A stretch of 64,000 bases of DNA from Citricoccus muralis (GTDB taxonomy: Bacteria; Actinomycetota; Actinomycetes; Actinomycetales; Micrococcaceae), in the NCBI RefSeq assembly GCF_029637705.1, contig NZ_CP121252.1:2728001-2792000 (forward strand), written 5' to 3'. The notes below the pieces were generated by a model. The model saw only the letters and a program-made list of their open reading frames with translations, made no database searches and was not told the origin of the DNA. Made by a program: the position numbers and the translations under genes. Below are positions 12,074 to 53,543 of this stretch, piece after piece (the stretch's first letter is position 1; each line of letters begins with the position of its first letter).

Positions 12074-12700
12074 CAGCCCACGAAGTTCTCCCCGGTGACC
12101 ACGATCGCTGGAGTACGCCCGCATCGCATTCCAGATCGGGTGAAGCGCACCTGGGATCAAGGCGAACTGGACAAGGTCTGGATCAGTGATGTGACGTATC
12201 TACGTACCGGGGAAGGATGGCTGTATCTGTGCCTGGTCACCGATGCCCATAGCCGGCGCGTGCTGGGCTGGTCGATGTCGAGGGTGCAGAACTCCGAGCT
12301 GATTGAATCCGCGCTGCGAAGAGCGTGCTTGGTCCGGCAGAATCACAAGCCTGATGGCCTGGTATTTCACGCGGATCGAGGGGCCCAGTACACCAGTGAA
12401 GACACGTACAAAGTCTGTTGGGATTTGGGCTTGGCTCAGTCAGTCGGCCGGACCGGGGTTTGCTTCGATAATGCGATGGCAGAGAGCGTGTTCTCCAAAT
12501 TGAAAACCGAGTTCTATGACCGTCGTGTCTGGGCTACCCGGGCTGAAGCTCGTGCTGGGGTCGTTCATTGGATTGAGCAGGTTTACAACCGTCGGCGACT
12601 GCATTCGGCCCTCGGGATGCTCCCGCCGGTGGAATACGAACATTCCCTTAGGGAACAGCAGTCAGCCGGTGAGATAGAAAGACTTCAGGCAACGGCCTGA
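12074..12700 (+). pseudogene. IS3-family transposase OrfB, 3' fragment (rve catalytic core)
   Basis: This is the second part of the disrupted orfB and carries the whole DDE core: VWISDVTYL (Asp), FHADRGAQYTS (Asp), AMAESVFSKLKTE (Glu), and the RRRLHSALG...PPVEYE ending. Joining it to 9139-9421 after removing IS21 and one target duplication does not restore the frame; one C is missing at the junction (expected CCCC, found CCC). So the gene was already frame-shifted, or a base was lost on insertion. An in-frame GTG at 12095 opens the fragment, but it lacks the N-terminal domain. Confidence 0.85.
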
Positions 12701-12742
12701 TGAACTAAGAACATGTCCACAACTTGCGGGCAAGCCCACAGC

Positions 12743-12831
12743 GGCGTATTGGCATAATCACATTTGATATGTGGAGCAAGACCGAAGATCACGCCCACGA
12801 GCTATACCGGGCCTCCCGCCGCGCCCGCTAA
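12743..12831 (+). pseudogene. 3' remnant of an unknown gene carrying the right copy of the 21-bp repeat
   Basis: Reading toward the TAA at 12829-12831, the frame is open and ends ITFDMWSKTEDHAHELYR followed by ASRRAR. The last 21 bases (12811-12831) are identical to the end of the agmatine-deiminase-like gene at 768-788, while the codons before differ. It starts right after the IS3 target duplication. It looks like the leftover tail of a gene displaced when the 12-kb block arrived. Too little is left to name the gene. Confidence 0.45.
12811..12831. repeat. Right copy of the 21-bp direct repeat
   Basis: Identical to 768-788, in the same orientation and in the same reading frame (ASRRAR, TAA). 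It marks the right limit of the less G/C-rich block; from 12832 on, the sequence returns to backbone composition. Confidence 0.6.
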
Positions 12832-12866
12832 TTGCGCCCCACCACCGCGGAGCGGATGGCGGTGAC

Positions 12867-13388
12867 CTATTCGGTGGGGCCGACGGCTTTTTCGAGTAAG
12901 GCGGCACCGATCATCGCGGCGAAGGTGACCCGCGGATCCTCGCCGCTCGGTTCGGCGTCGTCGTGATTCACCCCTGCAGCCTCGCAAAACTGGGCGTACA
13001 ACGACTCCACGCCCTGCGCGTAGGTCGCACGCGGCTCCGCTTCGGGCACGGAATGACTGGCCGGAGCGGCAATCGCCAAGATTGGGCAGGTGTACCGGGC
13101 CGGGCGCGAGCTTAGATAGTGCTCCGCCAGCGCATACACTGACGGGGTCCTCGCCACCACGGTGGACCACGACCGGGCGGCGTCGTCGAAAGTGTAGGCA
13201 AATGCCTCGCTGCGGTGGGCTTCCTTTGACTCGAATTGCTTGTAGAAGGCACCCACGGTGAGTACCGCCTCCGCCATAACATCGGCGATCGAGACGTTCT
13301 CCACCCCGCGCTCACGGAACAGGCGCGACGCCGTGGCCACCACGCGCTCCCGGTTCTCCGCGGCTCGGGCCTGACTCACCCGCCCCAT
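12867..13388 (-). CDS. TetR-family transcriptional regulator
   Basis: The 173-residue protein has a TetR N-terminal DNA-binding domain: [26 protein letters not shown], then the recognition helix region around [13 protein letters not shown] (residues about 15-57). The helical ligand domain is shortish (TetR proteins usually 180-220). The ATG at 13388 ([14 protein letters not shown]) matches the normal family start. The frame stays open upstream into the remnant of the MaoC-like gene, so a longer fused product cannot be excluded. The ligand is unknown. It is the first intact gene right of the 12-kb block. Confidence 0.85.
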
Positions 13389-41339: not shown

Positions 41340-42689
41340 CTATGCGGTCTGCTCGACGAGCGAAGACGCGGGGCGCTGGTGGGGAATGAAGGGCAGACCG
41401 AGGTTCTCGCGCAGCGTGCTGCCGGAGTATTCGCTACGAACGACGCCACGTTCACGCAGGATGGGGAGCACCTCATCGGTGAACCGCGAGAACTGCTCGT
41501 GAGTGCGATAGTGCACGTTGAGTCCGTCGAAGGCGCCTCCTTCGAACCATTCCTGCACGGTGTCAGCCACGGTTTCCGGGCTGCCCACGAAGGGAGAGCG
41601 CTTCGGAGCGGTGAACCGCGTGACTACCTCACGCAGCGTCAGGTTCTCCTCCTTCGCGACGGCACGAATCTTGTCAGCACGGGTCTTGAAGCTGCGATCC
41701 CCCAAATCCTGTAGATCAGGGAACGGTGCGTCGAGGTCGTACTGGGTGAAGTCGTGCCAGCCGAAGGAGCGCCCGAACTGACCGAGATCCTTATCGAAGT
41801 CTGCGTCCTGCTGATGATTCGCCGTTTCACGGTCACGCGCATCGGCGTCGGAATCGCCGACGACGATCTCCATGCCCGGCATGACCAGCACCTCGTCGGG
41901 GTTCCGGCCGAAGCGCTCGGCCCTGGCCCGCAGATCAGTGCGGAACGCTCGTCCTGATTCGAGGTTGGCAGCATGGGTGAAGATCCCCTCACCGACCGCT
42001 CCGCCCAGGTCTCGACCAAACTCGGAATCACCAGCCTGGAAGATCACGGGCTGCCCTTGAGCCGATCGTTGCACGTTGAGCGCCCCATCGAGGGTGAAGT
42101 GCGTTCCCCGGTGATGCACCTCGTGCAGCTTAGAGCGGTCCAGGAACTGTCCCGTGGCCCGGTCGCGTGGGAAGGCGTCGTCTTCATAAGAGTTCCAGAG
42201 TTGCTGTACCAGTCGCACGTGCTCCAGCGCCCGACCGTAGCGATCGTCGTAGTCGTAGTGCTGTTCCAGGCCGAAGAGTCGGGCTGTGCCTTCATCACCG
42301 GTGGTGACAACATTCCAGCCGGCCCGACCGCCACTGATCAGATCGAGCGAGGCGAAGCGGCGAGCCACCAGGAAGGGATCCTCGAAGGAGGTGGTGATCG
42401 TGCCGACGAGCCCGATGTTCTTCGTGAGTGCGGCGAGCGCCGAGAGGATCGTGAACGGCTCGAAGCGGTTGAGGTAGTGGGGCGGCGAATCAGGGGTGAT
42501 GAAGTGGCTGTCCACGATGAAGATCAGATCGAACTTCGCTGCCTCGGCCAGCCGCGCCTGGTGAGCGTAATACTCCAGGTTGACGCTGGCGTCCCCCGGA
42601 ACCGAAGCGTCTTTCCACACACCATGGTCTCCAGGACCGCCTGCGCCCTTGAGCACAGCTCCCAGTCGCAAGTATCGACGTGATGACAT
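41340..42689 (-). CDS. LLM-class flavin-dependent monooxygenase (NtaA/SnaA/DszA type)
   Basis: The 449-residue protein belongs to the large luciferase-like monooxygenases (NtaA/DszA/SnaA), which use reduced FMN from a separate reductase. Visible motifs are FDLIFIVDSHFITPDSPPHYLNRFEP, LISGGRAGWNVVTT, QHYDYDDRYGRALEHV and RSAQGQPVIFQAGDSEFGRD. Members act on nitrilotriacetate, dibenzothiophene sulfone and similar compounds. It heads the minus-strand operon with the peptide-type ABC transporter and has a strong ribosome site (GGAGAGGA). Oxidising an imported organosulfur compound is likely given the divergent metY operon, but not proven. Confidence 0.9.
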   Translation of the reverse strand: MSSRRYLRLGAVLKGAGGPGDHGVWKDASVPGDASVNLEYYAHQARLAEAAKFDLIFIVDSHFITPDSPPHYLNRFEPFTILSALAALTKNIGLVGTITTSFEDPFLVARRFASLDLISGGRAGWNVVTTGDEGTARLFGLEQHYDYDDRYGRALEHVRLVQQLWNSYEDDAFPRDRATGQFLDRSKLHEVHHRGTHFTLDGALNVQRSAQGQPVIFQAGDSEFGRDLGGAVGEGIFTHAANLESGRAFRTDLRARAERFGRNPDEVLVMPGMEIVVGDSDADARDRETANHQQDADFDKDLGQFGRSFGWHDFTQYDLDAPFPDLQDLGDRSFKTRADKIRAVAKEENLTLREVVTRFTAPKRSPFVGSPETVADTVQEWFEGGAFDGLNVHYRTHEQFSRFTDEVLPILRERGVVRSEYSGSTLRENLGLPFIPHQRPASSLVEQTA

Positions 42690-43088
42690 CTGAGTTCCTC
42701 TCCTCCGGATCGTGGCCCGTCGCGGTGCTGATCACGCATCCGTCCACTTCACTGAAACAACACAACGGAATGAACAGTCAGTCTTTATGTTCATTTTTGT
42801 TCAGCTGCTCGGTGCCGCGGATCTCTACCGACCACCACGTGGCGATCGACGCGTCCAGCAACAACTCCGCCACCGAACGGGCATGACCACCATGGAAGCA
42901 CAGGATTTCGCTGAAACAACCCTGGAATTGCAAGGAACTTATCTAGAAGTCACGCTTCTTCACATCCGCGCACTCATGCTTCCACCCGCCGATCCGATTG
43001 CGTAGATGACGGGGTACGGATACCGTTTCAGGCAGAGACCTGCCAGAATTTAAGTTCACTTTATTCGGTTTTATGTTCAGGAGATCGC
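42690..43088. promoter_or_regulatory. Divergent control region of the two sulfur-type operons, with TGTTCA repeats
   Basis: This 399-base region separates the monooxygenase/ABC operon (minus) from the hydrolase-metY-monooxygenase operon (plus). It is A/T-rich at both ends. TGAACA (42771-42776) and TGTTCA (42788-42793) form a spaced dyad, with a further TGTTCA at 42798-42803. On the other side are AGTTCA (43053-43058) and TGTTCA (43074-43079), the last directly before the ribosome site of the plus operon. These may be operators for a common regulator. A 40-codon frame starting ATGACCACCATGG near 42883 and ending at 43005 is possible but unsupported. Confidence 0.45.
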
Positions 43089-43844
43089 ATGACTGTCACC
43101 CAGCAGGAGTCCGTCGCTTCCATCGATGAGTACCTACCGGCCACGCCCCCGCGCGGACTTGTTGTCCTCGTTCAGGGACGCGCCGATGCAGCCAGCTATT
43201 ACGCCCGCTTCGGCCGTCGCTTGGCCGCGGACGGGTACATCGTGCGGGTGCCGAACGCCGCCCCAGATTCAGCCGAGGCGGCGGCCGAGCTGTGGAACGC
43301 GGCCCTGAGGGACCCGTCCCTGGTCGAGCGGCCAGACGGCCCCGTGCTCGCTGTGACCGTGGACGCCGGCGGAGGATTCTTCGCTCAGGCGCTGAGCGAA
43401 AAACTGGTCGAGGTGCGCCCGGACGGAGTGGCGCTCACCGGACTGGCTACCGCCGGTGCGACCGAGGGCGAGGGAGCCGACACGTCCGTGGCTGACGTCA
43501 GCTTCCGCAGCGCCTGCCCGGTGCATCGTGGCGTGGTCGAGAGTGCACAGTCGGCTTCCCAGCCCGCGGTGTCGTCCGATCAGGTTTCGCCCGTGCTGCC
43601 CGGCCATACCCTCGGGGTCCCCACCGTGGTGATCCATGGAAGCGCCGATGAGATCAGCCCGCTGGCTCAGCTGCGCGCGGACTGGATCGCCGGTCCGGTC
43701 GAACTGAATGTGGTGGCCGGCGGTCTGCACGACGTGCTCAACGACGTCCACCACCGCAGCGTGGCCGCCGTGATCGTCAGCTTCGCTGAACGGCTGCGCG
43801 GCGATGCCCGCGCCACCCCGATCATCCTGCAGGACACGCTGTGA
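43089..43844 (+). CDS. Alpha/beta-hydrolase-like protein
   Basis: The 251-residue protein has alpha/beta-hydrolase features: an early RGLVVLVQGRADAASYYARFGRRLAADGYIVRVPN strand-helix, and a late VPTVVIHGSADEISPLAQL segment with the usual Asp. It ends with a His in AGGLHDVLND. The nucleophile elbow (GxSxG) is not clear; the middle region reads VTVDAGGGFFAQAL, so Ser may be missing or replaced. AGGAGA lies just before the ATG. It overlaps metY by four bases, so it works with methionine synthesis or organosulfur use. The exact substrate is unknown. Confidence 0.7.
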   Translation: MTVTQQESVASIDEYLPATPPRGLVVLVQGRADAASYYARFGRRLAADGYIVRVPNAAPDSAEAAAELWNAALRDPSLVERPDGPVLAVTVDAGGGFFAQALSEKLVEVRPDGVALTGLATAGATEGEGADTSVADVSFRSACPVHRGVVESAQSASQPAVSSDQVSPVLPGHTLGVPTVVIHGSADEISPLAQLRADWIAGPVELNVVAGGLHDVLNDVHHRSVAAVIVSFAERLRGDARATPIILQDTL

Positions 43845-45175
43845 CCGGTTCCGGCACCCACGCGGTCCGCGCCGGAAGCGAGGCGGCGCACGGCCACCGG
43901 CCGGTCGCGGTGCCGATCCACCAGACGGCGGCCTACGAGTTCGATTCCTGGGAGCAGGCCCGCGAGGTTTTCGCGCTGCGCCAGACCGGGGATGTCTACA
44001 GCCGCACCGGCAATCCCACCCAGCTGGTGCTTGAGCAGCGCCTGGCTGCTCTCGACGACGGCGTGGCCGCCCTGGCCACCGGCTCCGGGCAATCCGCCGT
44101 CGTTGTCGCGCTGCTGGCGCTGGCGCGCAGCGGAGAGCACCTGGTGGCCTCCTCCACCCTCTACGGCGGCACCATGGACCTGCTCACGGACACGTTCACC
44201 GATTTCGGCATCGAGTCCACCCTGGTCGACCCACTCGACCTCGAGGCCTGGGCGGCGGCAATCCGGCCCACCACCCGCGCGCTATTCGTGGAGTCGGTGG
44301 GCAACCCGACGGCGAGCATTCCCGATCTGGAGTCGCTCGCCGAGATCGCCCACCGGGCAGGAGTGCCCCTGGTGGTCGACAACACCGTGGCCACCGCTGC
44401 CCTGCTCAAGCCCAAGGACCACGGCGCCGACATCGTGGTCTACTCGGCCACCAAGCATCTGGGCGGCCACGGGGGTTCGCTCGCCGGTGCCATCGTGGAC
44501 CTGGGGACCTTCGATTTCGGTGCCGAACCCGCACGCTGGCCGCAGTTCACGCAGCCCTATCCTCGCGTCGGCGACGTGGTGCTCTGGGAACGCTTCGGTC
44601 GGGAGTCCAGCGCACTGTTGGTCTACGCTCGCACCAAGCTCGTTCACGACCTGGGCCCCAGCCTCTCCCCGTTCAACGCCCGCGACATCCTGCTCGGCAT
44701 TGAGACCCTGGAGGTCCGGCTGGCGCGCATCTCAACGACGACGCAGACCGTGGTCGACGCCCTACTCGAGCATCCGGCCGTCACCCGCGTGCACCATCCG
44801 CTTGCCGAGCGCGGGGCGGCTCGGACCCGGGCGGAGCACTATCTGCCGCGCGGCTGGCCCGGCGTGCTGTCCTTCGACGTCGTCGACCCCGCGCTGGTCC
44901 CCGCGGTGGTGGACGGTCTGCGACTGTTTACCCTGGCCGCCAACATCGGGGACGTACGCTCGCTCGTCATCCACCCCGCCACCACCACGCACTCCCATTT
45001 CACGGAAGCGCAGCTGACCCAGGGCGGGTTCTCCGCCGCCACGATTCGACTCTCGGTGGGCCTGGAGAACCCGGAGGATCTGGTGGCCGACCTGAGCGCG
45101 ACCCTGGACGCCGCCAGCACCGCAGTATCGGCTGCGAACCAGAACATTTCACGTCAGAAAGTTGGACAACCATGA
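43841..45175 (+). CDS. metY: O-acetylhomoserine (thiol)-lyase, Cys/Met metabolism PLP enzyme
   Basis: The 444-residue PLP enzyme of the Cys/Met family has PLP Lys205 in YSATKHLGGHG, Asp180 in VVDNTVATAAL, the phosphate-binding Tyr/Arg in DVYSRTGNPT and LATGSGQSA. Length (about 430-445) and the LGGHG motif fit O-acetylhomoserine sulfhydrylase, which joins sulfide or a thiol to O-acetylhomoserine to give homocysteine. The GTG start at 43841 overlaps the previous stop (GTGA), and its own end overlaps the next gene (ATGA). It could fix sulfite or sulfide released by the monooxygenases. Confidence 0.9.
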   Translation: MTGSGTHAVRAGSEAAHGHRPVAVPIHQTAAYEFDSWEQAREVFALRQTGDVYSRTGNPTQLVLEQRLAALDDGVAALATGSGQSAVVVALLALARSGEHLVASSTLYGGTMDLLTDTFTDFGIESTLVDPLDLEAWAAAIRPTTRALFVESVGNPTASIPDLESLAEIAHRAGVPLVVDNTVATAALLKPKDHGADIVVYSATKHLGGHGGSLAGAIVDLGTFDFGAEPARWPQFTQPYPRVGDVVLWERFGRESSALLVYARTKLVHDLGPSLSPFNARDILLGIETLEVRLARISTTTQTVVDALLEHPAVTRVHHPLAERGAARTRAEHYLPRGWPGVLSFDVVDPALVPAVVDGLRLFTLAANIGDVRSLVIHPATTTHSHFTEAQLTQGGFSAATIRLSVGLENPEDLVADLSATLDAASTAVSAANQNISRQKVGQP

Positions 45176-46218
45176 CTCTGCACTTCGGCTACTGGACCCC
45201 GGTGTACGGCGGATTCCTGCGCAACGTCGGCGACGAGGGCACCCCCGCCACCTGGGAGACCATCCGCTCGCTGTCCTTGACGGCGGACCGGCTCGGCTAC
45301 CACACCACGCTCATCCCCGAGCTGTACCTTAACGACCGCAAGGGGGTGGACGCCCCCAGCCTGGAGGCCTGGGCGCTGACCTCCGCGGTGCTCGCGGTGA
45401 CGCAGAACCTGCGCGTGATGACGGCTATCCGACCGGGGTTCCATCACCCGGCGGTGGCGGCCAAGCAGCTTTCCACCCTGGACTCGATCGCTCCCGGGCG
45501 CCTCGCACTGAACGTGGTGGCAGCCTGGTGGGCGGAGGAGGCCAAGCAGTTCGGCGGGGATTTTCCTGCCCACGATGAGCGCTACGCGCAGGCTACTGAG
45601 TTTGTTGAGGCGCTCACCGGGGCGCTGGCCACCACCCCCTTCAGCTACGACGGCGACTTCTTCACGCTGACCGACACCATTGTCGAGCCGAAGCTCTCCG
45701 GTGAGCTGGGCATCTTCGCCGGCGGGGAGTCCGCTCAGGGCCGCGACGCGATTGCCGACTTCGCTAACGCCTACGCCATGCACGGCGGCACCGTGGCGGA
45801 GATCCGGGACAAGATCGCCGACATGCAGCGCCGTCGCGCGGCCAAGGGACGCCCGCCGCTCGAAGAATTTGCGATGTCGGCGTACGTGATCGTCCGCGAC
45901 ACCGAGGCCGAAGCTCAGGCAGAGCTGGAGCGGATCACCACCGTGGATCCGCATTCCCCCGGCTACGCCTCCTTCCAGGAGTTCACCGCGAATTCAGCCC
46001 TTGATGTGGAGGTCTCGGCACGCGAGTACGCGGTGGGCACCCGAGGGCTGCGCCCGAACCTGGTGGGCACCGCGGAACAGGTGGCGGAGAAGATCCGCGC
46101 CTACGAGGAGGCGGGGCTGACCCTGTTGCTCATCCAGTCCTCCCCCATCGAGTCGGAGCTGGAGCGTATCGCTGCCGAGGTGTTCCCGCTCGTTCATGGT
46201 GCCCCGGTTACGGTATGA
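45172..46218 (+). CDS. LLM-class flavin monooxygenase (alkanesulfonate/dimethylsulfone monooxygenase-like)
   Basis: The 348-residue protein is a luciferase-like monooxygenase close to SsuD/SfnG: FGYWTPVYGGFLRNV, SLTADRLGYHTTLIPELYLNDRKGVDAPSLEAWAL, MTAIRPGFHHPAVAAKQLSTLDSI, LNVVAAWWAEEA and IFAGGESAQGRD. Enzymes of this group split C-S bonds of sulfonates or sulfones with FMNH2 and O2, giving sulfite. It overlaps metY by four bases. Its 3' end, together with the end of the convergent MocR gene, is duplicated at 52137-52247 on the other side of the phn/P450 island. Confidence 0.9.
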   Translation: MTLHFGYWTPVYGGFLRNVGDEGTPATWETIRSLSLTADRLGYHTTLIPELYLNDRKGVDAPSLEAWALTSAVLAVTQNLRVMTAIRPGFHHPAVAAKQLSTLDSIAPGRLALNVVAAWWAEEAKQFGGDFPAHDERYAQATEFVEALTGALATTPFSYDGDFFTLTDTIVEPKLSGELGIFAGGESAQGRDAIADFANAYAMHGGTVAEIRDKIADMQRRRAAKGRPPLEEFAMSAYVIVRDTEAEAQAELERITTVDPHSPGYASFQEFTANSALDVEVSAREYAVGTRGLRPNLVGTAEQVAEKIRAYEEAGLTLLLIQSSPIESELERIAAEVFPLVHGAPVTV

Positions 46219-46258
46219 CCGGCCCGAGCCGACCACGGGCGGCATCGGCCACCCGCTG
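46148..46258. repeat. Left 111-bp flanking repeat of the phn/P450 island
   Basis: This segment matches 52137-52247 at 106 of 111 positions in the same orientation. It holds the last 23 codons of the monooxygenase gene (intact here) and, on the other strand, the last 16 codons of a MocR-type gene ending GRLGPVIP (a remnant here). The island 46259-52136 therefore sits inside a duplicated copy of the original convergent junction. Confidence 0.92.
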
Positions 46259-46272
46259 ACGCCCTCAGCAGG

Positions 46273-46293
46273 GGGAGACTCACTGAGCCTCCC
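46273..46293 (+). terminator. Candidate terminator after the metY-monooxygenase operon
   Basis: GGGAG-A-CTC-ACT-GAG-C-CTCCC forms a hairpin with one internal mismatch, followed by TTAAAA. It stands 55 bases after the monooxygenase stop and just before the promoter of the island operon, on the island side of the repeat. Confidence 0.5.
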
Positions 46294-46302
46294 TTAAAAC
46301 CG

Positions 46303-46331
46303 TTGACAAACTCACGCAACAGTGATGTGAT
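46303..46331 (+). promoter_or_regulatory. Candidate promoter of the phnD-phnC-phnE-P450-paaX operon
   Basis: A perfect TTGACA (46303-46308) is followed after 17 bases by TGTGAT (46326-46331, four of six consensus bases). It lies 80 bases before phnD. The PaaX-type regulator encoded at the end of the operon could act on nearby sequences, but no clear operator was identified. Confidence 0.55.
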
Positions 46332-46411
46332 ATGTCTCACGTTGATAGGCCACAGATTTTCGACCACAGCGTAAATATCATGCCTTCTATTCCTCTTGCT
46401 GAGTAGGTTCC

Positions 46412-47404
46412 ATGCGTCATCATCTCAAGCCCCTGATTGCCCTTTCCTGCACCGCGTTACTCCTCAGCGCCTGCGGTGAAAGCCCTAATGCGCGTAGCTC
46501 CAACACCGGGTCTGAAGCCCCGTCCGAGCTAGTATTCGCCGTTGTTCCCACAGATAACAGCGAAGAACTTCTAAGTTCTTTCGAACCTGTGGTTGCCGCC
46601 ATCGAAGAGGAGGCTGGCATTCCAGTTTCAATTCAGGCCGTCAGTAACAACGCCGGAGTGATCGAAGCCCAGGTCTCCCAACGAGTCGACGTCGCCGTCT
46701 ACGGCGCGTTCTCTTATTACCTCGCCTCGGATGTGGCTGATGTCACACCGATTGCCATGGATCAATTAACACCTGAGGCGGGCTCAGGAGCGGTGAGCTC
46801 CGTCGGCGTCACGATCCCTGGAAGTGACATTACTTCTCTGGCAGATGTCGATGGCAAGGACGTCTGCTTCACCGACCCGGCTTCGACGACGGGGTACCTC
46901 GCAGCGGCCGCAGGCCTGATCGAGGAAGGCATCGACCCGGAGGACGATATTAATCCGGTCTTCACCGGCTCCCATGATGTCGCCGTCACTCAGATGATCG
47001 CTGGCGACTGCGACATCGCCTTTGTGGCCCAAACCTTCGTCGATGTTCTCCTGCCGGCGCGTGGTGTCATAGAGGACGGGGACACCGAGACGATCTGGGT
47101 CTCCGATGGCATTCCCGGCACTCCGATGGTGGTGGGAACCTGGCTGCCGGAGGACCTTCAGGAAAGTATCCGCCGGGCAATGAGCGAATATAACGCTGTC
47201 ACGGCTGCAGAGGCCGGGTTCTGCGCCGACGAGGACCAGCGTCCTGCCCCAGAGCAATGGGGAGACGAGTACACCGACGCAATGGCCTGCGAATGGGGCG
47301 GCACAGGGGCATTCGCCTTCGAGCCCGCGACGGATGAGAGCTACGACCCTATCCGTGAGATCTGCGAAGCAACTCAGGCTGAGGTGTGCCGTGATGACAG
47401 CTGA
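46412..47404 (+). CDS. phnD: Phosphate/phosphonate-type ABC transporter binding lipoprotein (PhnD family)
   Basis: The 330-residue protein has lipobox LLLSAC-GE and the PhnD pattern: LVFAVVPTDNSEELLSSFEPV, VAVYGAFSYYLASD, KDVCFTDPASTTGYLAAAAGLIEEGIDPEDDI, FTGSHDVAVTQMIAGDCDIAFV. PhnD-type proteins bind phosphonates, phosphite or other small oxyanion-like solutes. Four Cys residues in the mature part are more than usual. The gene is first in a five-gene transcript and overlaps phnC. The presence of a P450 in the operon makes a non-phosphonate ligand possible. Confidence 0.88.
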   Translation: MRHHLKPLIALSCTALLLSACGESPNARSSNTGSEAPSELVFAVVPTDNSEELLSSFEPVVAAIEEEAGIPVSIQAVSNNAGVIEAQVSQRVDVAVYGAFSYYLASDVADVTPIAMDQLTPEAGSGAVSSVGVTIPGSDITSLADVDGKDVCFTDPASTTGYLAAAAGLIEEGIDPEDDINPVFTGSHDVAVTQMIAGDCDIAFVAQTFVDVLLPARGVIEDGDTETIWVSDGIPGTPMVVGTWLPEDLQESIRRAMSEYNAVTAAEAGFCADEDQRPAPEQWGDEYTDAMACEWGGTGAFAFEPATDESYDPIREICEATQAEVCRDDS

Positions 47405-48209
47405 CCCGCAGGCGCCGGGTGCCGTCCGGAACGAAAGCCCCTTAGACTCCCCTGGCTCTGATCACGCAAGTATCAGTCTTCAGAGTGTGCACAAGCGCTT
47501 CGGCGACAACCATGTCTTACAGGGTGTGGAATTGAAGGCCCACCCCGGAGAGTTCGTCGCGTTGGTCGGCCCTTCTGGCGCTGGTAAGTCGACACTTCTG
47601 CAGTTACTCAATGGTGGACACGTCGCCACCGAGGGAACGGTGAGTGTGCTGGGCGTCAACCCTGCTCAGTGCAGCCGAAGACACCTGCGAGAGCTCAGGA
47701 CGCGGATCGGCTTCGTGTTTCAGCAGTTCGGACTCGTCGGTCGCCTCTCCGCCCTGGAGAACGTTCTCATGGGTGGCCTGGGCAGCCTCAAAATGCCCCG
47801 CTACGGCATCATGACCTATCCACGGGCCCTGCGCGAGCGCGCCAACGAGAATCTGGAGAGGGTCGGCTTGCTGGACTTCAGATTCCAGCGCACGGACACA
47901 CTCTCCGGAGGGCAGCAGCAGCGCGTGGCCATCGCCCGGATGCTGATGCAGGACGCGGAACTCGTCCTCGCCGATGAACCGGTGGCCTCACTGGACCCCG
48001 CAGCAAGTGTCTCCGTCTTAGAAACACTCAAAAAGCTCAGCGCCGAGGATGGCTTCACCGTGATGTGTTCCCTCCACCAGGTCGACCTCGCTTTGCAAGT
48101 GTCTGATCGCATCGTCGCTGTGCGTGATGGCCGATTCATTCTTGACACTCCCACCTCCCAGACGGACGAGCAAGAAATCCGTACCGTTTACGCAGCGGCA
48201 AGGAGTTAA
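47394..48209 (+). CDS. phnC: Phosphonate-type ABC transporter ATP-binding protein (PhnC family)
   Basis: The 271-residue ABC ATPase has Walker A GPSGAGKST, Q-loop FQQFGLVGRLSALENVL and the PhnC-type RYGIMTYPRALRERANENLERVGL segment. The signature LSGGQQQR, Walker B LVLADEPVASLDP and H-loop SLHQVDLA follow. The ATG at 47394, or the GTG three bases before it, lies inside the end of phnD, so translation is coupled. Length and motifs are normal for PhnC. Confidence 0.9.
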   Translation: MTADPQAPGAVRNESPLDSPGSDHASISLQSVHKRFGDNHVLQGVELKAHPGEFVALVGPSGAGKSTLLQLLNGGHVATEGTVSVLGVNPAQCSRRHLRELRTRIGFVFQQFGLVGRLSALENVLMGGLGSLKMPRYGIMTYPRALRERANENLERVGLLDFRFQRTDTLSGGQQQRVAIARMLMQDAELVLADEPVASLDPAASVSVLETLKKLSAEDGFTVMCSLHQVDLALQVSDRIVAVRDGRFILDTPTSQTDEQEIRTVYAAARS

Positions 48210-48213
48210 GATC

Positions 48214-49857
48214 ATGCCCGCCGTCACTGCGTCAGCGCGGTCCTCATCGCGAACTCCGACTCCACACCGCCCGCAACGGGCCCAACTATCTACCGCAACC
48301 TGGGCCGTTCCGGCTTCGTATCTCGTGATCACGATTTTCGGGATGTGGTGGATCGATGTGCGTCCTGGGGTGGTCGTCGAAGGATTCGGGGACATCGCCC
48401 GACTCATGGAACGAATGGTCCCGGCCACCACGGGGCCACTTCCGCCGCTCATCGCGCTCGTCTTCGAAACGTTATGGATCGCCCTGGCGGGCACCGGTAT
48501 CGCAACTCTCCTGTCGATTCCCTTGGCCGCCGCGGCATCTCGATCGTTCACCGGGCCACGTTGGGTACAGATCATCAGCCGCCTGGTCATCATGCTGACG
48601 CGGGCTGTTCCCTCACTCATTTTCGCGATCATCTTCGTGCGGATTTTTGGCTTGGGTCCGCTCGCCGGTGCGCTGGCCATCGCTGTGCATTCGATCGGCA
48701 TGATCGGCAAGATGATGACGGATTCCTTTGAGGAGCTCAGCCCACAGCCGCGCGAGGCAATCCAAGCCACCGGTGCCACACGGACCCAGACATTTATCGC
48801 AACCACACTCACCCGCGCGCTGCCGCAGATGACATCCTTCGTGCTGTATCGACTCGACATCAATATTCGGGCATCGGCAATTCTCGGCCTGGTTGGAGCC
48901 GGCGGCATCGGCGTCGCCCTTCAAACTGCCATCGGTAGCCTCAACTATCCTCGCGCGGCTGGGATCATCATCGTCATCATCCTCCTACTACTGGCGCTTG
49001 AATTGGTCTCCTTCCTCTCACAGCGGTCCCTGGCCGAGCACGCCGACCCTTCGGCATCCTCACAGCTGTTCGTCGCCAGCCGGTCCGGGCGCGACCCGGG
49101 ATGGTCGCTGCAACGGTTTGGGCGCACTGCAGCAGCACTCAGCGCCATCGGACTTTTCCTCTTCGCTCTGTCCACGCTGTCTATCCCCTTCGATAGACTC
49201 CAACGAAGCGGGGCAAATGCGTGGGCCATGCTGAGCGGATTCGTCCCGCCGACAATCAGTACAGAAGTCGTCCTGGGCATCTTCGAAAGCGTGATCATGG
49301 CTCTGACGGCAACCTCGTTCGGAGTGTTGATCGGCCTGGTCATTGCGATTCTCTCCACGAATCATCTGGTGAACATCCCAGCTCTGAGCTGGATGCTTCG
49401 AACCTTCGTAGTACTTGTCCGCGGGGTCCCGGACATCATCTACGCGTTGATCTTCGTCGCTGCGCTGGGTCTCGGTCCTTTCCCTGGGTTCCTAGCACTG
49501 TCGATCTCCTGCACCGCACTGGCCGCCAAGTTCTTTACCGACGCACTCCAGAACATCAACCCAGGCCCTCGGCGTGCGCTGGAAGCTACCGGTGCCGGTC
49601 GGGTTCAGGCATTCGTCAGCGGCGTCTGGCCTCAATTCGTGCCATCCTTCATCGCCAACAGCCTGTTCACCTCGGATCTTGCCTTACGGGAATCCGCAGT
49701 TTTGGGCATTGTCGGCGCGGGCGGCGTCGGATTCCTGCTCCACGAATCTGTCACATCCATCCAGTACTCGACCACCGCGGGCATCCTCATCGGGCTCGTG
49801 ATCGTCGTCGTCGCGCTCGAGCAAGTGGCGCGCTGGGCGCGTAGAAAGGTACTTTGA
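48214..49857 (+). CDS. phnE: Phosphonate-type ABC transporter permease with two fused PhnE domains
   Basis: The 547-residue protein contains two PhnE-type membrane domains in tandem. Each has its own EAA loop: LSPQPREAIQATGATRTQTFIATTL near residue 180 and INPGPRRALEATGAGRVQAFVSGVW near residue 455. Single PhnE proteins are about 260-280 residues and form dimers; here one chain supplies both halves. The ATG at 48214 is 4 bases after the phnC stop, and the P450 gene starts one base after the stop. The two halves differ considerably, so the fusion is not a recent duplication. Confidence 0.9.
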   Translation: MPAVTASARSSSRTPTPHRPQRAQLSTATWAVPASYLVITIFGMWWIDVRPGVVVEGFGDIARLMERMVPATTGPLPPLIALVFETLWIALAGTGIATLLSIPLAAAASRSFTGPRWVQIISRLVIMLTRAVPSLIFAIIFVRIFGLGPLAGALAIAVHSIGMIGKMMTDSFEELSPQPREAIQATGATRTQTFIATTLTRALPQMTSFVLYRLDINIRASAILGLVGAGGIGVALQTAIGSLNYPRAAGIIIVIILLLLALELVSFLSQRSLAEHADPSASSQLFVASRSGRDPGWSLQRFGRTAAALSAIGLFLFALSTLSIPFDRLQRSGANAWAMLSGFVPPTISTEVVLGIFESVIMALTATSFGVLIGLVIAILSTNHLVNIPALSWMLRTFVVLVRGVPDIIYALIFVAALGLGPFPGFLALSISCTALAAKFFTDALQNINPGPRRALEATGAGRVQAFVSGVWPQFVPSFIANSLFTSDLALRESAVLGIVGAGGVGFLLHESVTSIQYSTTAGILIGLVIVVVALEQVARWARRKVL

Positions 49858-49858
49858 T

Positions 49859-51121
49859 ATGACTCAGGCTCAGGAGAACGCTGCAACCGGCTGCCCCTTC
49901 ACGGGGCACAATGACAGCGCTAAACGACCGTCGGAGTGGACCCCTGCGCGCGAAGAGACCTTCGGGTCAGCACATCAGGACTATGAGGAACTGCGCCAGA
50001 AGAATCCTTTCCCCTGGAGCTCCGCATATGGTGGATTCTGGGCGGCCACGACGTACGAAGACATCCTGAATGTCACATTGGACGACGATCTCTTCAGCAC
50101 AGCCGTCCAGAACGTGGTCCCCCATGTGCCAAGGTCTTCCCGCCGACCTCCGCTGCACTTCGATCCGCCCGAGCACACCGAATATCGCACTGCTTTGGAT
50201 CCAGTTTTCCGTCGCAGCGTCATCCGAGCCCATCATGACGACTATGTCGCGGGTGCCCGACAGCTCGTTGCCGATCTCCTCGCGCACCCCGAACCGGACG
50301 CGGTCCGCGACTTCGCTGCCCCCTTCGTCATGGACTGCTTTGCTGCACTACTCGGCGTCTCCCGCATGCTGACTCGCGAAATCCGCGATATCGGCGTCCG
50401 CTATTCCTTCGCGATTCAAGATATGGACGATCCGGTTATCGCGGACTGCAGCAAGCGTCTCTACGCAATCGCCGAGGAGGTTTACGCCCAACATCAGGCA
50501 TCGGGGCTCGATCCTCACCGCGATCTGGTCGCCGGCCTCAAGCAGGCGGTCGCCGACGACAACAACGGGATCACGGAGAAAACCGCGATCGCCACCATTC
50601 GTCAGCTCATCGTCGCAGGTATGGGCGCTCCTCAAGCTGTCCTGGGCAGTGCGATCGTGCATCTGGCCCAGGATCCGCAACTGCAGCAGCACCTCCGCGA
50701 CCATCCGGATGATCTGCCAGCGGCCATCGAGGAGTTCTTGCGGCTACACGCTCCCTACCGGGTGTTCGCCCGAACGGCGAAGCGTGACACCATCTTTCAC
50801 GGAAGAACCGTCCGCCAGAATGAACCCATCGCGCTGATCTTCCCCTCCGCGAATAGGGACGTTGAGCACTTCGAGAATCCGCATGAGTTCGTCCTGCACC
50901 GCAAACAGAATTCGCACCTGTCCTTCGGCAGAGGAGCCCATCGCTGCCCTGCTGCAACACTAGGCCGGATGGAACTGCTCGTCGCATTGCAAGTCCTTCT
51001 GCAGGACACTCAGCACTTCGAGCTTGCCGGTGACGTCGAAATGATGAACTGGCTTGAATACGGTCCCCGGGCTGTTCCCATATCCATCACACCGCGGATT
51101 CCACGGAATGAGAGAGAATGA
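49859..51121 (+). CDS. Cytochrome P450 with unusual helix I (no acid-alcohol pair)
   Basis: The 420-residue soluble P450 has the heme-binding loop FGRGAHRCPAATLG (Cys363), ExxR in EEFLR (Glu292, Arg295), and HFDPPEHTEYR in the B'-C region. In helix I the consensus A/G-G-x-D/E-T-T/S is A253-G-M-G256-A257-P258, so both the acid and the alcohol residues that deliver protons to oxygen are absent. The residue after the heme Cys+1 is Ala instead of the usual Gly. It may use another proton path, peroxide, or a substrate group. It is translated right after phnE; no ferredoxin or reductase gene is nearby. The substrate is likely the imported compound. Confidence 0.88.
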   Translation: MTQAQENAATGCPFTGHNDSAKRPSEWTPAREETFGSAHQDYEELRQKNPFPWSSAYGGFWAATTYEDILNVTLDDDLFSTAVQNVVPHVPRSSRRPPLHFDPPEHTEYRTALDPVFRRSVIRAHHDDYVAGARQLVADLLAHPEPDAVRDFAAPFVMDCFAALLGVSRMLTREIRDIGVRYSFAIQDMDDPVIADCSKRLYAIAEEVYAQHQASGLDPHRDLVAGLKQAVADDNNGITEKTAIATIRQLIVAGMGAPQAVLGSAIVHLAQDPQLQQHLRDHPDDLPAAIEEFLRLHAPYRVFARTAKRDTIFHGRTVRQNEPIALIFPSANRDVEHFENPHEFVLHRKQNSHLSFGRGAHRCPAATLGRMELLVALQVLLQDTQHFELAGDVEMMNWLEYGPRAVPISITPRIPRNERE

Positions 51122-52082
51122 GCAGGTGAACGGCAAGACCAGAACTCCGAGGTCGGTGATTCCTCGGAACCAATCCGGAACTGCACCGCAACGACTGTTG
51201 ACGGTGCTCTTCGGCGACTACTGGCTAGGGCGGGCCGACCCCATCCCTTCTAGCGCGCTCGTCGAGCTGCTCTCTGTCTTCGGTGTCTCTGAGACCGGAG
51301 CGCGGGCGGCCGTGCAAAGACTCGCCCAGCGCGGCTTTCTTGTCGCTCATCGGCAGGGACGACGCACGTCCTACGCGGTGCAGAGAGAAACACGCGAAAC
51401 GGTGGCACTGCATGTCAAAAGGCTCTTCCATTCTCACCATCCCCCCGCTTGGGATGGCACTTGGACACTCGTCAGCTATATGCTGCCCGGTCAGGAGACT
51501 TCTGACCGACGACTGCTTCGCGACGAACTGCGCAATCTCAAGTTCGGCAACCTCTCCGACGGCGTCTGGATCAGACCAGGTGATCAAGTTGAGGAAGTGG
51601 TCGCCACGCTTCAGCGCCTCGATGCCGATGCCGACAATGACGTCGGAGTGTTTCGACAGGGCGTGTTAGCCTGGCCCTCTTCAGTCCACCACGTCCGTGC
51701 CGCTTTCGACGCTGACGGTCTCGATGAGGAGTATCGGAAATTCGCGGATTTCTGGAGCCCCCAAGCACATGCTCTGGAACGTGAACCGATAAGCGGCGAA
51801 AACGCACTACGGCTGCGCACCGAGGTGATGTCCGCGTGGCGAACGTTGGTGCGCAAAGACCCACAGCTCCCCGCGGACCTGCTCAGCGACCCAGCCCCGA
51901 TCCAGCTAGCTGCCACCACCTGTGCAGTCCTATATGACGCATTGGGCTCGCCCGCGGAGCACGCCGTGCGCAGGATTTTGGAGCGTCATAGCCCCGAACT
52001 GGCGGAAATGGTAAGCCACCATACGTTCGCGAGTTCTCTGTCCGTCATTGAATCGGCCTCATCCGGTTCGGCCACGTTGTAA
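51108..52082 (+). CDS. PaaX-type transcriptional regulator
   Basis: The protein (324 residues from ATG 51108) has the PaaX family layout: an N-terminal winged helix (RLLTVLFGDYWLGRADPIPSSALVELLSVFGVSETGARAAVQRLAQRGFL), a middle GTWTLVSYMLPGQETSDRRLLRDELRNLKFG segment, and a helical C-terminal domain. PaaX represses phenylacetate catabolism and senses a CoA thioester; relatives control other aromatic pathways. The ATG overlaps the P450 stop by 14 bases; a GTG at 51126 with GAGAGAA before it is an alternative start. As the last gene of the operon, it probably controls its own transcript. Confidence 0.85.
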   Translation: MRENEQVNGKTRTPRSVIPRNQSGTAPQRLLTVLFGDYWLGRADPIPSSALVELLSVFGVSETGARAAVQRLAQRGFLVAHRQGRRTSYAVQRETRETVALHVKRLFHSHHPPAWDGTWTLVSYMLPGQETSDRRLLRDELRNLKFGNLSDGVWIRPGDQVEEVVATLQRLDADADNDVGVFRQGVLAWPSSVHHVRAAFDADGLDEEYRKFADFWSPQAHALEREPISGENALRLRTEVMSAWRTLVRKDPQLPADLLSDPAPIQLAATTCAVLYDALGSPAEHAVRRILERHSPELAEMVSHHTFASSLSVIESASSGSATL

Positions 52083-52136
52083 GGCTTGGCCGTACGGCGT
52101 TGAAGTCGTGCGGCATCAGAGAAAAATTGGGGCAAT

Positions 52137-52247
52137 TCGAGTCGGAGCTGGAGCGTATCGCCGCCGAGGTGTTCCCGCTCGTTCAGGGTGCCCCCGTTAC
52201 GGTATGACCGGCCCGAGCCGGCCGCGGGCGGCATCGGCCACCCGCTG
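52137..52247. repeat. Right 111-bp flanking repeat of the phn/P450 island
   Basis: The second copy of 46148-46258, with five base differences. Here the MocR 3' end is intact (stop at 52197-52199), while the monooxygenase part (23 codons ending APVTV) is a remnant without its gene. The first base of similarity lies 55 bases after the paaX stop. Confidence 0.92.
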
Positions 52248-53543
52248 CGCCAGCTCGTCCAGCGAAGACTCCGGCAGCTGTGCCAGCGAGAGCCGCAGTC
52301 GCTGCCGCTGTTGATCCGGGCTCACGTGGGAGGCTGAAGCGACGTCGACGACGATGCCGTGGGAGCTCAGCGCCAAGGCGGCGGATCGCTCGTCGGCAAC
52401 CTCCACCCAGAGCGCCCAACTGCCCGGTCCACTATGCACCGTGAGTCCGGCTGCGGAGAACGCGGCGAGCGCCCGCTCGCGTCGGCGAGTGTACCGCTGG
52501 CGCGCCTGGTGCACCGCCGCACCGGTGCGCTCATCGCTGAGCAGGGCAGCGAGGGCGTCCTGGAGCAGGCGGCTGTTGGAGGCCACCCCTCCGCTGCGTT
52601 GATGAATGGCGGCGTCCACGAGAGGTCGGGCGCCGCCGATCACCGAGGTGCGCAGATCAATGCCGAAGGCGCGGCAGTACTCCTGCACCCGGATGGTTTG
52701 CTGAGGCAGGCGATGTCCGAGCGTCCGTACCGGCACCGTGGAGAGCGGCCCGAGCACATCGTCCTCAATGACGGCGACGTCGGTTCCTTCGAGCAGGTCG
52801 GCCAGTTCCTCGGCCCGGGCGCTGCTGAGCACGTGACGATCGGAGAACGGTCCACCGGGAGACAGCACCAGAGCGGCAGCTCCGGCATCAACGGCAGCCC
52901 TGACACCCTCCACGGTGGGGCCCTCGTCGTCCACCGGGACGCCGATCACCGTGAGCCCCTCCTCTTGCAGTCCCGCCAGGAACCCGGGTGCGAGCGGTTC
53001 CTCGCAGGCCACCACACGCTGGTTGCCCACGGCGGCGCGGGTGGCCAGCCAGAGTCCCTCCGTACCACCGCCGGCGGTCATCCACCCGGTCGCCTCGAAG
53101 GGCCAGTCGCGGGAGACGATCCGGTGCAGGGCCTGCACAATGTACTCCCGGCCCCATTCGTTGAAATGTGGGGTCCTCAGTGCCGTGGCGACCGCGCGGT
53201 CCAACGGCGGCAACAGCGCCGGGTCCGGGCTGCAGAACAGGAAATCGACGTCGGACCAGGCCACCGGGGCTTCATCCTGCGTCGGGGGACGCACGGCACC
53301 GAGCACCCGGGTCCCGCCCCGCTGCCGAGTCTCGATGAGTCCGGCGTCGCGTAGCAACGACCAGGCTTTGGCCACCGTGCCGATGCTGACGCCTAACTCA
53401 CCCGCGACCGCGCGCACCGTAGGCAGGCGGGCTCCCACGTCCAGGGTGCCAGCTTCCACCAGCTCGCGCGTCTGGGTGGCGATGCCGTGAGAATCGGTCG
53501 CCGAGATCAGCTCGCCAAGCGCGCCCGCGCTGATGTCCGCCAT
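52197..53543 (-). CDS. MocR-like GntR/aminotransferase-fold regulator lacking the PLP lysine
   Basis: The 448-residue protein joins an N-terminal GntR winged helix (GARLPTVRAVAGELGVSIGTVAKAWSLLRDAGLIETRQRGGTRV, residues 37-80) to a fold-type I aminotransferase domain. MocR proteins bind PLP on a Lys in an F-S-K-x-L-x-P-G-L-R segment. Here the corresponding segment is EYCRAFGIDLRT, with Arg291 in place of Lys, so a PLP Schiff base cannot form there. The IEDDVLG acidic motif is kept. It converges on the monooxygenase operon at 45172-46218 in the inferred ancestral order, and may have regulated a neighbour of it. Confidence 0.85.
   Translation of the reverse strand: MADISAGALGELISATDSHGIATQTRELVEAGTLDVGARLPTVRAVAGELGVSIGTVAKAWSLLRDAGLIETRQRGGTRVLGAVRPPTQDEAPVAWSDVDFLFCSPDPALLPPLDRAVATALRTPHFNEWGREYIVQALHRIVSRDWPFEATGWMTAGGGTEGLWLATRAAVGNQRVVACEEPLAPGFLAGLQEEGLTVIGVPVDDEGPTVEGVRAAVDAGAAALVLSPGGPFSDRHVLSSARAEELADLLEGTDVAVIEDDVLGPLSTVPVRTLGHRLPQQTIRVQEYCRAFGIDLRTSVIGGARPLVDAAIHQRSGGVASNSRLLQDALAALLSDERTGAAVHQARQRYTRRRERALAAFSAAGLTVHSGPGSWALWVEVADERSAALALSSHGIVVDVASASHVSPDQQRQRLRLSLAQLPESSLDELAQRVADAARGRLGPVIP

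Follow-up and report, generated by a model that had tools for sequence, protein, structure and literature searches.

Each part of the locus described here has known relatives. The regulator PaaX is known from phenylacetate operons. Among cytochromes P450, the CYP152 fatty-acid peroxygenases lack the acid-alcohol pair of the I helix and carry Arg-Pro in its place. Computations on OleT fused to a reductase found that the acid end of the substrate replaces the missing pair, and the substrate acid group could substitute in the CYP152 enzymes as well (PMC10988616). The GcoA- and PbdA-type P450 O-demethylases of lignin monomers are bacterial, like our enzyme, and act in aromatic catabolism. Phosphonates are imported by ATP-binding cassette (ABC) transporters of the PhnDCE type, encoded in the order D-C-E, also within carbon-phosphorus (C-P) lyase operons (loci L082, L083 and L085 among those compared below). 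The ligand-binding residues of two related binding proteins are known, for PtxB (phosphite), including Y55 and Y100, which hold oxygens of the ligand, and the capping Y208 (PMC5700983), and for GpxB (glycerol-1-phosphate), where Tyr138 is reported as crucial and Thr247 binds a hydroxyl (PMC12718374). Here we analysed an island that joins a phnDCE-type transporter, a P450 and a PaaX-type regulator in Citricoccus muralis. It lies at 46148-52247 of a 64,000-nucleotide stretch (hereafter the window; contig NZ_CP121252.1, positions 2,728,001 to 2,792,000). A first-pass annotation of the window had not recognised this combination from described systems, and we found no publication on the set in the literature searched.

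We read the island as one copy of a mobile catabolic cassette combining an esterase, PhnDCE import, P450 oxidation of a small organic acid and PaaX repression, and give this reading a little better than an even chance (about 0.53). Five tightly spaced genes, all on the + strand, fill the whole insert. They encode a PhnD-like substrate-binding lipoprotein (46412..47404), a PhnC-like ATPase (47394..48209, with the first ATG of its open frame at 47334), a PhnE with two permease domains in one 547-aa chain (48214..49857), the P450 (49859..51121) and the PaaX-family regulator (51108..52082). Pfam and TIGR profile searches agreed with the first-pass assignment of all of these functions. PhnE scored above the cut-off of the phosphonate-permease equivalog TIGR01097 (429.6 against 216.7 bits, in two stretches) and PhnC just under that of TIGR02315 (263.0 against 266.1). 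PhnD stayed under its equivalog cut-off (160.7 against 261.1) and passed that of the broader TIGR01098 (176.8 against 112.05).

The gene set travels together, as the first-pass annotation had proposed to check. Short-peptide patterns of the P450 were run against the genomes of 84,980 species, so the census is incomplete; there were 46 matches to the patterns, and 32 loci were confirmed. The order phnD-phnC-phnE-P450 was found in 18/18 loci with a P450 identity of at least 54 %, which come from Arthrobacter, Citricoccus, Microbacterium, Frigoribacterium, Agromyces, Nocardioides and Thermocatellispora. In 17 of these, paaX directly follows the P450 gene; the exception, L037, has two paaX genes upstream on the opposite strand, beyond the hydrolase gene described below. 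Pairwise distances of six genes correlate over the loci (r 0.64-0.93), some of which shared species history alone would give. Within the order, the P450 is present in 2 of 396 genomes at E<=1e-60, the host's own and G031, and PhnD in 20 at E<=1e-40, namely these two and 18 others at 36-43 % identity. G031 was taken to be the same genome as L033 (Arthrobacter koreensis) and does not count as an independent case. Plasmid relatives of the P450 appeared in seven records at 38-41 % identity, and the four plasmid neighbourhoods viewed showed no phosphonate transporter, although their gene table is incomplete. These four relatives (L058-L061, from Novosphingobium and Croceicoccus) each lie beside a LacI-type regulator, with major facilitator superfamily genes near in two and hydrolases near in three (tannase-type in L058, CocE-type in L059 and L060).

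The first-pass annotation had not noticed the partner of the cassette. By tblastn, a gene for a tannase-like alpha/beta hydrolase adjoins the operon in 18/18 loci, in 10 of them divergently upstream and in 8 downstream. Its sequence contains GxSxG and a signal-like N terminus, and the protein is probably secreted. Searches for its identity gave weak esterase, S9 and tannase-like matches in Pfam, weak NCBIfam matches and one PDB match at E 0.001. Among the 396 genomes (E<=1e-40), the same query found a 63 % copy beside the module in G031 and a 36 % relative in one other genome. Away from the module, G031 gave a further match at 37 %; a second hydrolase relative in this genome (about 39 %) is 6 kb from another P450 with a canonical I helix (L087, 8779-10203 and 15943-17406). 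Relatives of the hydrolase lie about 4-11 kb from the P450 in L042, L044, L049 and L058, which suggests that the link between hydrolase and P450 reaches beyond PhnDCE, but not far.

Regarding the borders, the island is discrete, as first proposed. Its ends form a direct repeat of 111 bp (46148-46258 and 52137-52247) with 106 identical positions, and a search of the whole single-contig genome of 3.13 Mb found the repeat at these two places and no third. Alignment and translation confirmed that each copy holds the 3′ ends of the same two convergent genes. The left neighbour is an intact LLM monooxygenase gene, SfnG-like in profile searches but below the SfnG cut-off (45172..46218, + strand), and the right neighbour an intact gene for a MocR-type regulator (52197..53543, - strand). 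The left repeat thus joins the LLM 3′ end to a relict MocR 3′ end, and the right repeat joins a relict LLM 3′ end to that of the intact MocR gene. Each copy contains the 22 terminal codons of LLM with its stop, differing by one H/Q exchange between the two, and the 16 terminal codons of MocR with its stop, identical in protein. The GC content at third codon positions (GC3) is 66-71 % in the five insert genes. Seven flanking genes were measured: the esterase-like, O-acetylhomoserine (OAH) sulfhydrylase, LLM and MocR genes have 81-86 %, two genes further to the right 85 and 90 %, and NtaA to the left 75 %. The insert therefore has the direct repeats and the differing GC3 of a genomic island. Total GC alone (60.1 %) would not single it out, as the insert is only 25th among 117 sliding windows by this measure.

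Horizontal gain by the host genome would explain this structure. The alternative is an old local duplication around native genes, which we consider very improbable. Such a duplication would fit repeat copies that have diverged by 4.5 % and an insert without any integrase or transposase gene. It would also fit the lack of an empty site for this insertion in our searches with MocR in 99 relatives and with LLM in 295 family genomes. The MocR search gave five matches, the host's own and four at 35-50 %; the 50 % match (L054) has no LLM match alongside, and another relative, L055, has LLM-family matches at 27-36 %. The LLM search found the host genome only, and since none of the 294 other family genomes has a match to the gene at 45172 at E<=1e-70, the left flank may itself be acquired. 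Against the duplication stand the GC3 values, which in each insert gene are lower than in all seven flanking genes, and a separate copy in Microbacterium that has both a duplicated junction and empty sites. The left flank (41340-46218) has neighbours of an organosulfur type, with two LLM monooxygenases and an OAH sulfhydrylase-like gene. No tRNA gene was found in the window.

The Microbacterium copy came from a scan for flank repeats in all 18 related loci. Two have repeats at the module edges, L029 (Microbacterium sp. B35-30) with 77/79 and L030 with 33/34 identical positions; the other 16 gave no repeats or short matches (score 16-26) that were not accepted as borders, and in L021 the right flank, at 290 bp, is too short for a repeat to be seen. 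The 79-bp repeat of L029 includes the final 23 codons of a convergent gene, a second PaaX-like one, whose intact copy stands on the right (12289-13149). The left-hand gene of 153 residues, which we take to be a DUF3237 protein, was the query for empty sites in 198 genomes of the genus. It matched in 36, and 30 places were made into loci. In L090 and L093 the stop codons of this gene and of the PaaX-like gene are 12 and 42 bp apart, and the module is absent there. These loci look like empty sites of the L029-type insertion, which a precise loss would fit too. The two genes are about 340 bp apart in L091, the hydrolase adjoins the 153-residue gene in L089, L092 and L094, and the 24 other loci have neither the PaaX-like gene nor the hydrolase. 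At least two copies of the cassette thus sit between convergent genes and have a duplicated junction. Four Microbacterium loci have a coenzyme A (CoA) ligase gene near the module, and some also MaoC, amidohydrolase, GCV_T (presumably LigM-like) and NitT-type ABC genes; L035 has an acyl-CoA dehydrogenase neighbour, named by eye. As L090 and L093 have the flank genes side by side but no module between them, we read the CoA ligase-type genes as the recipient's, and a substrate guess based on them was dropped. The second PaaX-like gene also occurs in L030, L090 and L093; in L027, L029, L030 and L035 it lies beside CoA-ligase and NitT-type ABC genes, in what looks like a further acid-catabolism cluster.

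We compared the binding pocket of PhnD with those of PtxB and GpxB, whose ligand residues were mapped through phmmer alignments (nine residues each checked, no offset). The AlphaFold model, built on an alignment of 19 sequences, reached a predicted local distance difference test (pLDDT) score of 83 in the best of five, with 43-71 in the others. Its best fold matches are PtxB bound to phosphite and to methylphosphonate, followed by GpxB bound to glycerol-1-phosphate, and by HtxB, PhnD and ArrX. The protein has the Ser-x-Ser/Thr plus His site and the type II binding-protein fold of the PhnT type, in common with PtxB and GpxB, and the oxyanion residues S158, T160 and H188 (S158-T159-T160 in the window) are kept in 19/19 module PhnDs. 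The head of the pocket differs. PtxB Y55 corresponds to N80 in 19/19, as also to N in GpxB, and PtxB Y100, which is GpxB Tyr138, to V128 in 18/19, with Y in L037. Tyrosine stands at both positions in 13/13 relatives outside P450 loci, a comparison group of 13 loci taken from the 18 order genomes with other PhnD relatives. The capping Y208 of PtxB is T237, which matches GpxB Thr247, and GpxB Arg223 aligns with V212. We read PhnD as a putative oxyanion-binding protein with a partly changed head site. The transporter as a whole shares the gene order D-C-E with the phosphonate importers, and identity to the 13 comparison loci is 46-53 % in PhnC and 34-39 % in PhnD over the aligned part; the island differs from the phosphonate importers in N80 and V128, in having no C-P lyase genes and in the P450 and paaX behind. 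The fused PhnE was dropped as a difference, as single long PhnE matches also occur in L085 and L086.

The second feature beyond the first-pass annotation is the missing acid-alcohol pair of the P450. The enzyme has the heme loop FGxGxHxC with Cys363, ExxR at 292-295 and, in its model (pLDDT 84), a general P450 fold with families tied among the best 50 matches (Z at least 41.3). Its I helix reads RQLIVAGMGAPQA, and in 36/36 P450s Ala-Pro replaces the pair, so that both the acid and the alcohol are missing from their usual positions. These are the enzymes of the window, the 32 loci and three plasmid loci, and the search patterns exclude the I-helix stretch; the alignment A1 holds 31 sequences, with L030 and L047 left out, and the reading frame of the L047 P450 contains an in-frame stop. 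Among 19 control P450s from relatives (pairwise tblastn), 13 have the pair, five one half of it and one neither. As the pair is absent, its job would fall to the acid group of the substrate or to peroxide, and the comparison with OleT suggests that the substrate could be an acid. From CYP152 the enzyme is set apart through Ala-Pro instead of Arg-Pro and its ordinary heme loop. Unlike the GcoA/PbdA-type systems, the operon has no reductase gene.

Regarding regulation, the last gene of the operon has all three domains of the phenylacetate PaaX (PaaX, PaaX_M and PaaX_C, above the Pfam cut-offs). It differs from that protein in staying under the equivalog cut-off (126.3 against 264.55), and the insert has no phenylacetate genes. 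A motif search in 19 upstream regions returned TCCGTTGACAATCTCAACGATT and, closer to phnD, GATAGGCCACACAT, with L031 placed off its clear copy of both. In the window, the first corresponds to ACCGTTGACAAACTCACGCAAC (46299..46320, + strand) with a -35-like TTGACA, which in relatives forms the palindrome GTTGA-N5-TCAAC and is a candidate promoter and PaaX operator; the second is GATAGGCCACAGATT (46344..46365, + strand), whose GGCCACA occurs roughly 65-120 nt upstream of phnD in 11/19 regions (10 motif sites, L031 by eye). If up to one mismatch is allowed, RTTGA-N5-TCAAY is found in the 330 bp before phnD in 14/19, and with up to two mismatches its density is 4.5 per kb upstream of phnD and 0.7 overall. 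L026, L027, L029, L030 and L035 have two copies; in four of these five, which are among the ten loci where the hydrolase gene is divergent, the second copy could serve that gene. Of the promoter and terminator first ascribed to the insert, neither was called by our scans of the window. The promoter keeps some support from TTGACA, which is conserved in related loci. For the terminator there is a weak signal, as 46255-46305 folds as two hairpins (46255-46269 and 46271-46295) with a z of -2.2 for the whole 51-nt stretch; the second, on the + strand just inside the left repeat, would be the possible terminator.

In its full form, the cassette would work as follows. The hydrolase, probably secreted, would cleave an ester outside the cell. 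The small organic acid released in this way, or some other oxyanion whose tail is uncharged, would enter through the transporter with the changed pocket. The P450 would then oxidise the imported acid, with the acidic group of the substrate or peroxide supplying the role of the acid-alcohol pair. The PaaX-type repressor would bind the palindrome that overlaps TTGACA, so that the operon would be on when substrate or product is present. Several results weigh against this picture. The hydrolase was found neither in the window nor anywhere in the genome of its host by the query used, and the host would have to rely on others, or on an unrelated esterase, for the release of the acid. The other 14 P450 loci (36-44 % identity) have no PhnD match, and PaaX was found within the DNA examined in six of them, all actinobacteria. 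Together with the four plasmid loci they make 18 distant P450 loci screened for the hydrolase, and 14 of these show none. Five of the 19 upstream regions, the window included, have no palindrome copy at up to one mismatch (the window copy has two), and the operator motif includes the -35 box itself. Finally, the partly kept oxyanion site and the kinship with phosphonate transporters keep a phosphorus ligand possible.

That ligand is the core of the alternative in which PhnDCE brings in a phosphonate or a phosphate ester. The P450 would oxidise the carbon adjacent to phosphorus, or the carbon of the ester, and so release phosphate or carbon. We consider this unlikely. It would agree with the equivalog scores of PhnE and PhnC, with the phosphorus ligands of the best fold matches, with the retained S158, T160 and H188, with N80 and T237, both of which have their counterpart in GpxB, and with three PhnD relatives that lie beside C-P lyase genes. 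The acid pair Glu177/Asp205 (PhnD numbering) of 2-aminoethylphosphonate (2-AEP) binders is absent, with T208 and T237 in the window. Column 208 is T, P or V in the module PhnDs and has no acid in 13/13 other relatives, and the neighbouring 207 is D/E in 13/13 of these and in 9/19 module PhnDs. Column 237 is T in 17, S in one and P in one of the 19; among the 13, nine have D there and four have S or T. Loss of these acids was at first thought to be a hallmark of the module and was dropped, as 208 and 237 do not separate the groups, which also counts against our reading; the three relatives beside C-P lyase genes have Ser at 237 and lack the 2-AEP Asp too. The two tyrosines do separate the groups, and their replacement by N and V, at 128 of a residue reported as crucial in GpxB (PMC12718374), appears to weaken the idea of a phosphorus cargo. 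The first-pass annotation had proposed an uptake-and-oxidation module for a small, possibly phosphorus-containing or aromatic, compound; the gene set does travel together, the phosphorus part has lost ground, and the compound may or may not be aromatic. That PhnJ is present in 0/17 module genomes (2 of the 18 loci were left out) says little, because 15/18 genomes with other PhnD relatives (L068, L070-L078 and others) lack PhnJ too, with phnJ near the transporter in the remaining 3/18. It does not set the module genomes apart, and the argument from C-P lyase was dropped. A phosphonatase scored above the cut-off in 0/17 module genomes and 0/14 controls, a search that had no positive control. A PaaX-type regulator and an esterase would fit carbon use.

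The cassette might instead disarm or remove a natural product that is toxic, such as an ester or a lactone, and not feed the cell. The rarity of the set in the order, with the P450 in 2/396 genomes, would suit this role, and a hydrolase with a P450 could also be a detoxifying pair; a cell would hardly be expected to take up a toxin actively, and we regard this alternative as improbable. A further proposal concerns the chemistry only and is compatible with the catabolic cassette. The P450 may be a natural peroxygenase or a reductive enzyme that needs no electron partner, for which the missing pair and the lack of a ferredoxin gene among the five insert genes argue. Its I helix has A-P rather than the R-P of CYP152, and we hold the proposal as tentative, on the doubtful side. 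Similarly doubtful, and a shade more so, is a wider version of the catabolic reading. It would centre the cassette on a P450 family with members in Actinomycetota, Bacillota and Proteobacteria that carry Ala-Pro in place of the pair and activate oxygen with help from the substrate acid; the phosphonate-type importer would have been converted in actinobacteria to carry this acid and joined with secreted esterases. The cassette would enter between convergent genes and leave a duplicated junction of ~80-110 bp without an integrase of its own.

If the island is a catabolic cassette of the kind proposed, it would represent an undescribed catabolic route present in at least 18 further actinobacterial genomes. 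Its P450 would be a natural test of how such an enzyme works without the acid-alcohol pair, and its transporter a phosphonate-type importer re-tuned to another cargo, so that genes annotated 'phnDCE' would not always point to phosphonate use. Moreover, the two duplicated junctions would make the entry of the cassette into genomes testable.

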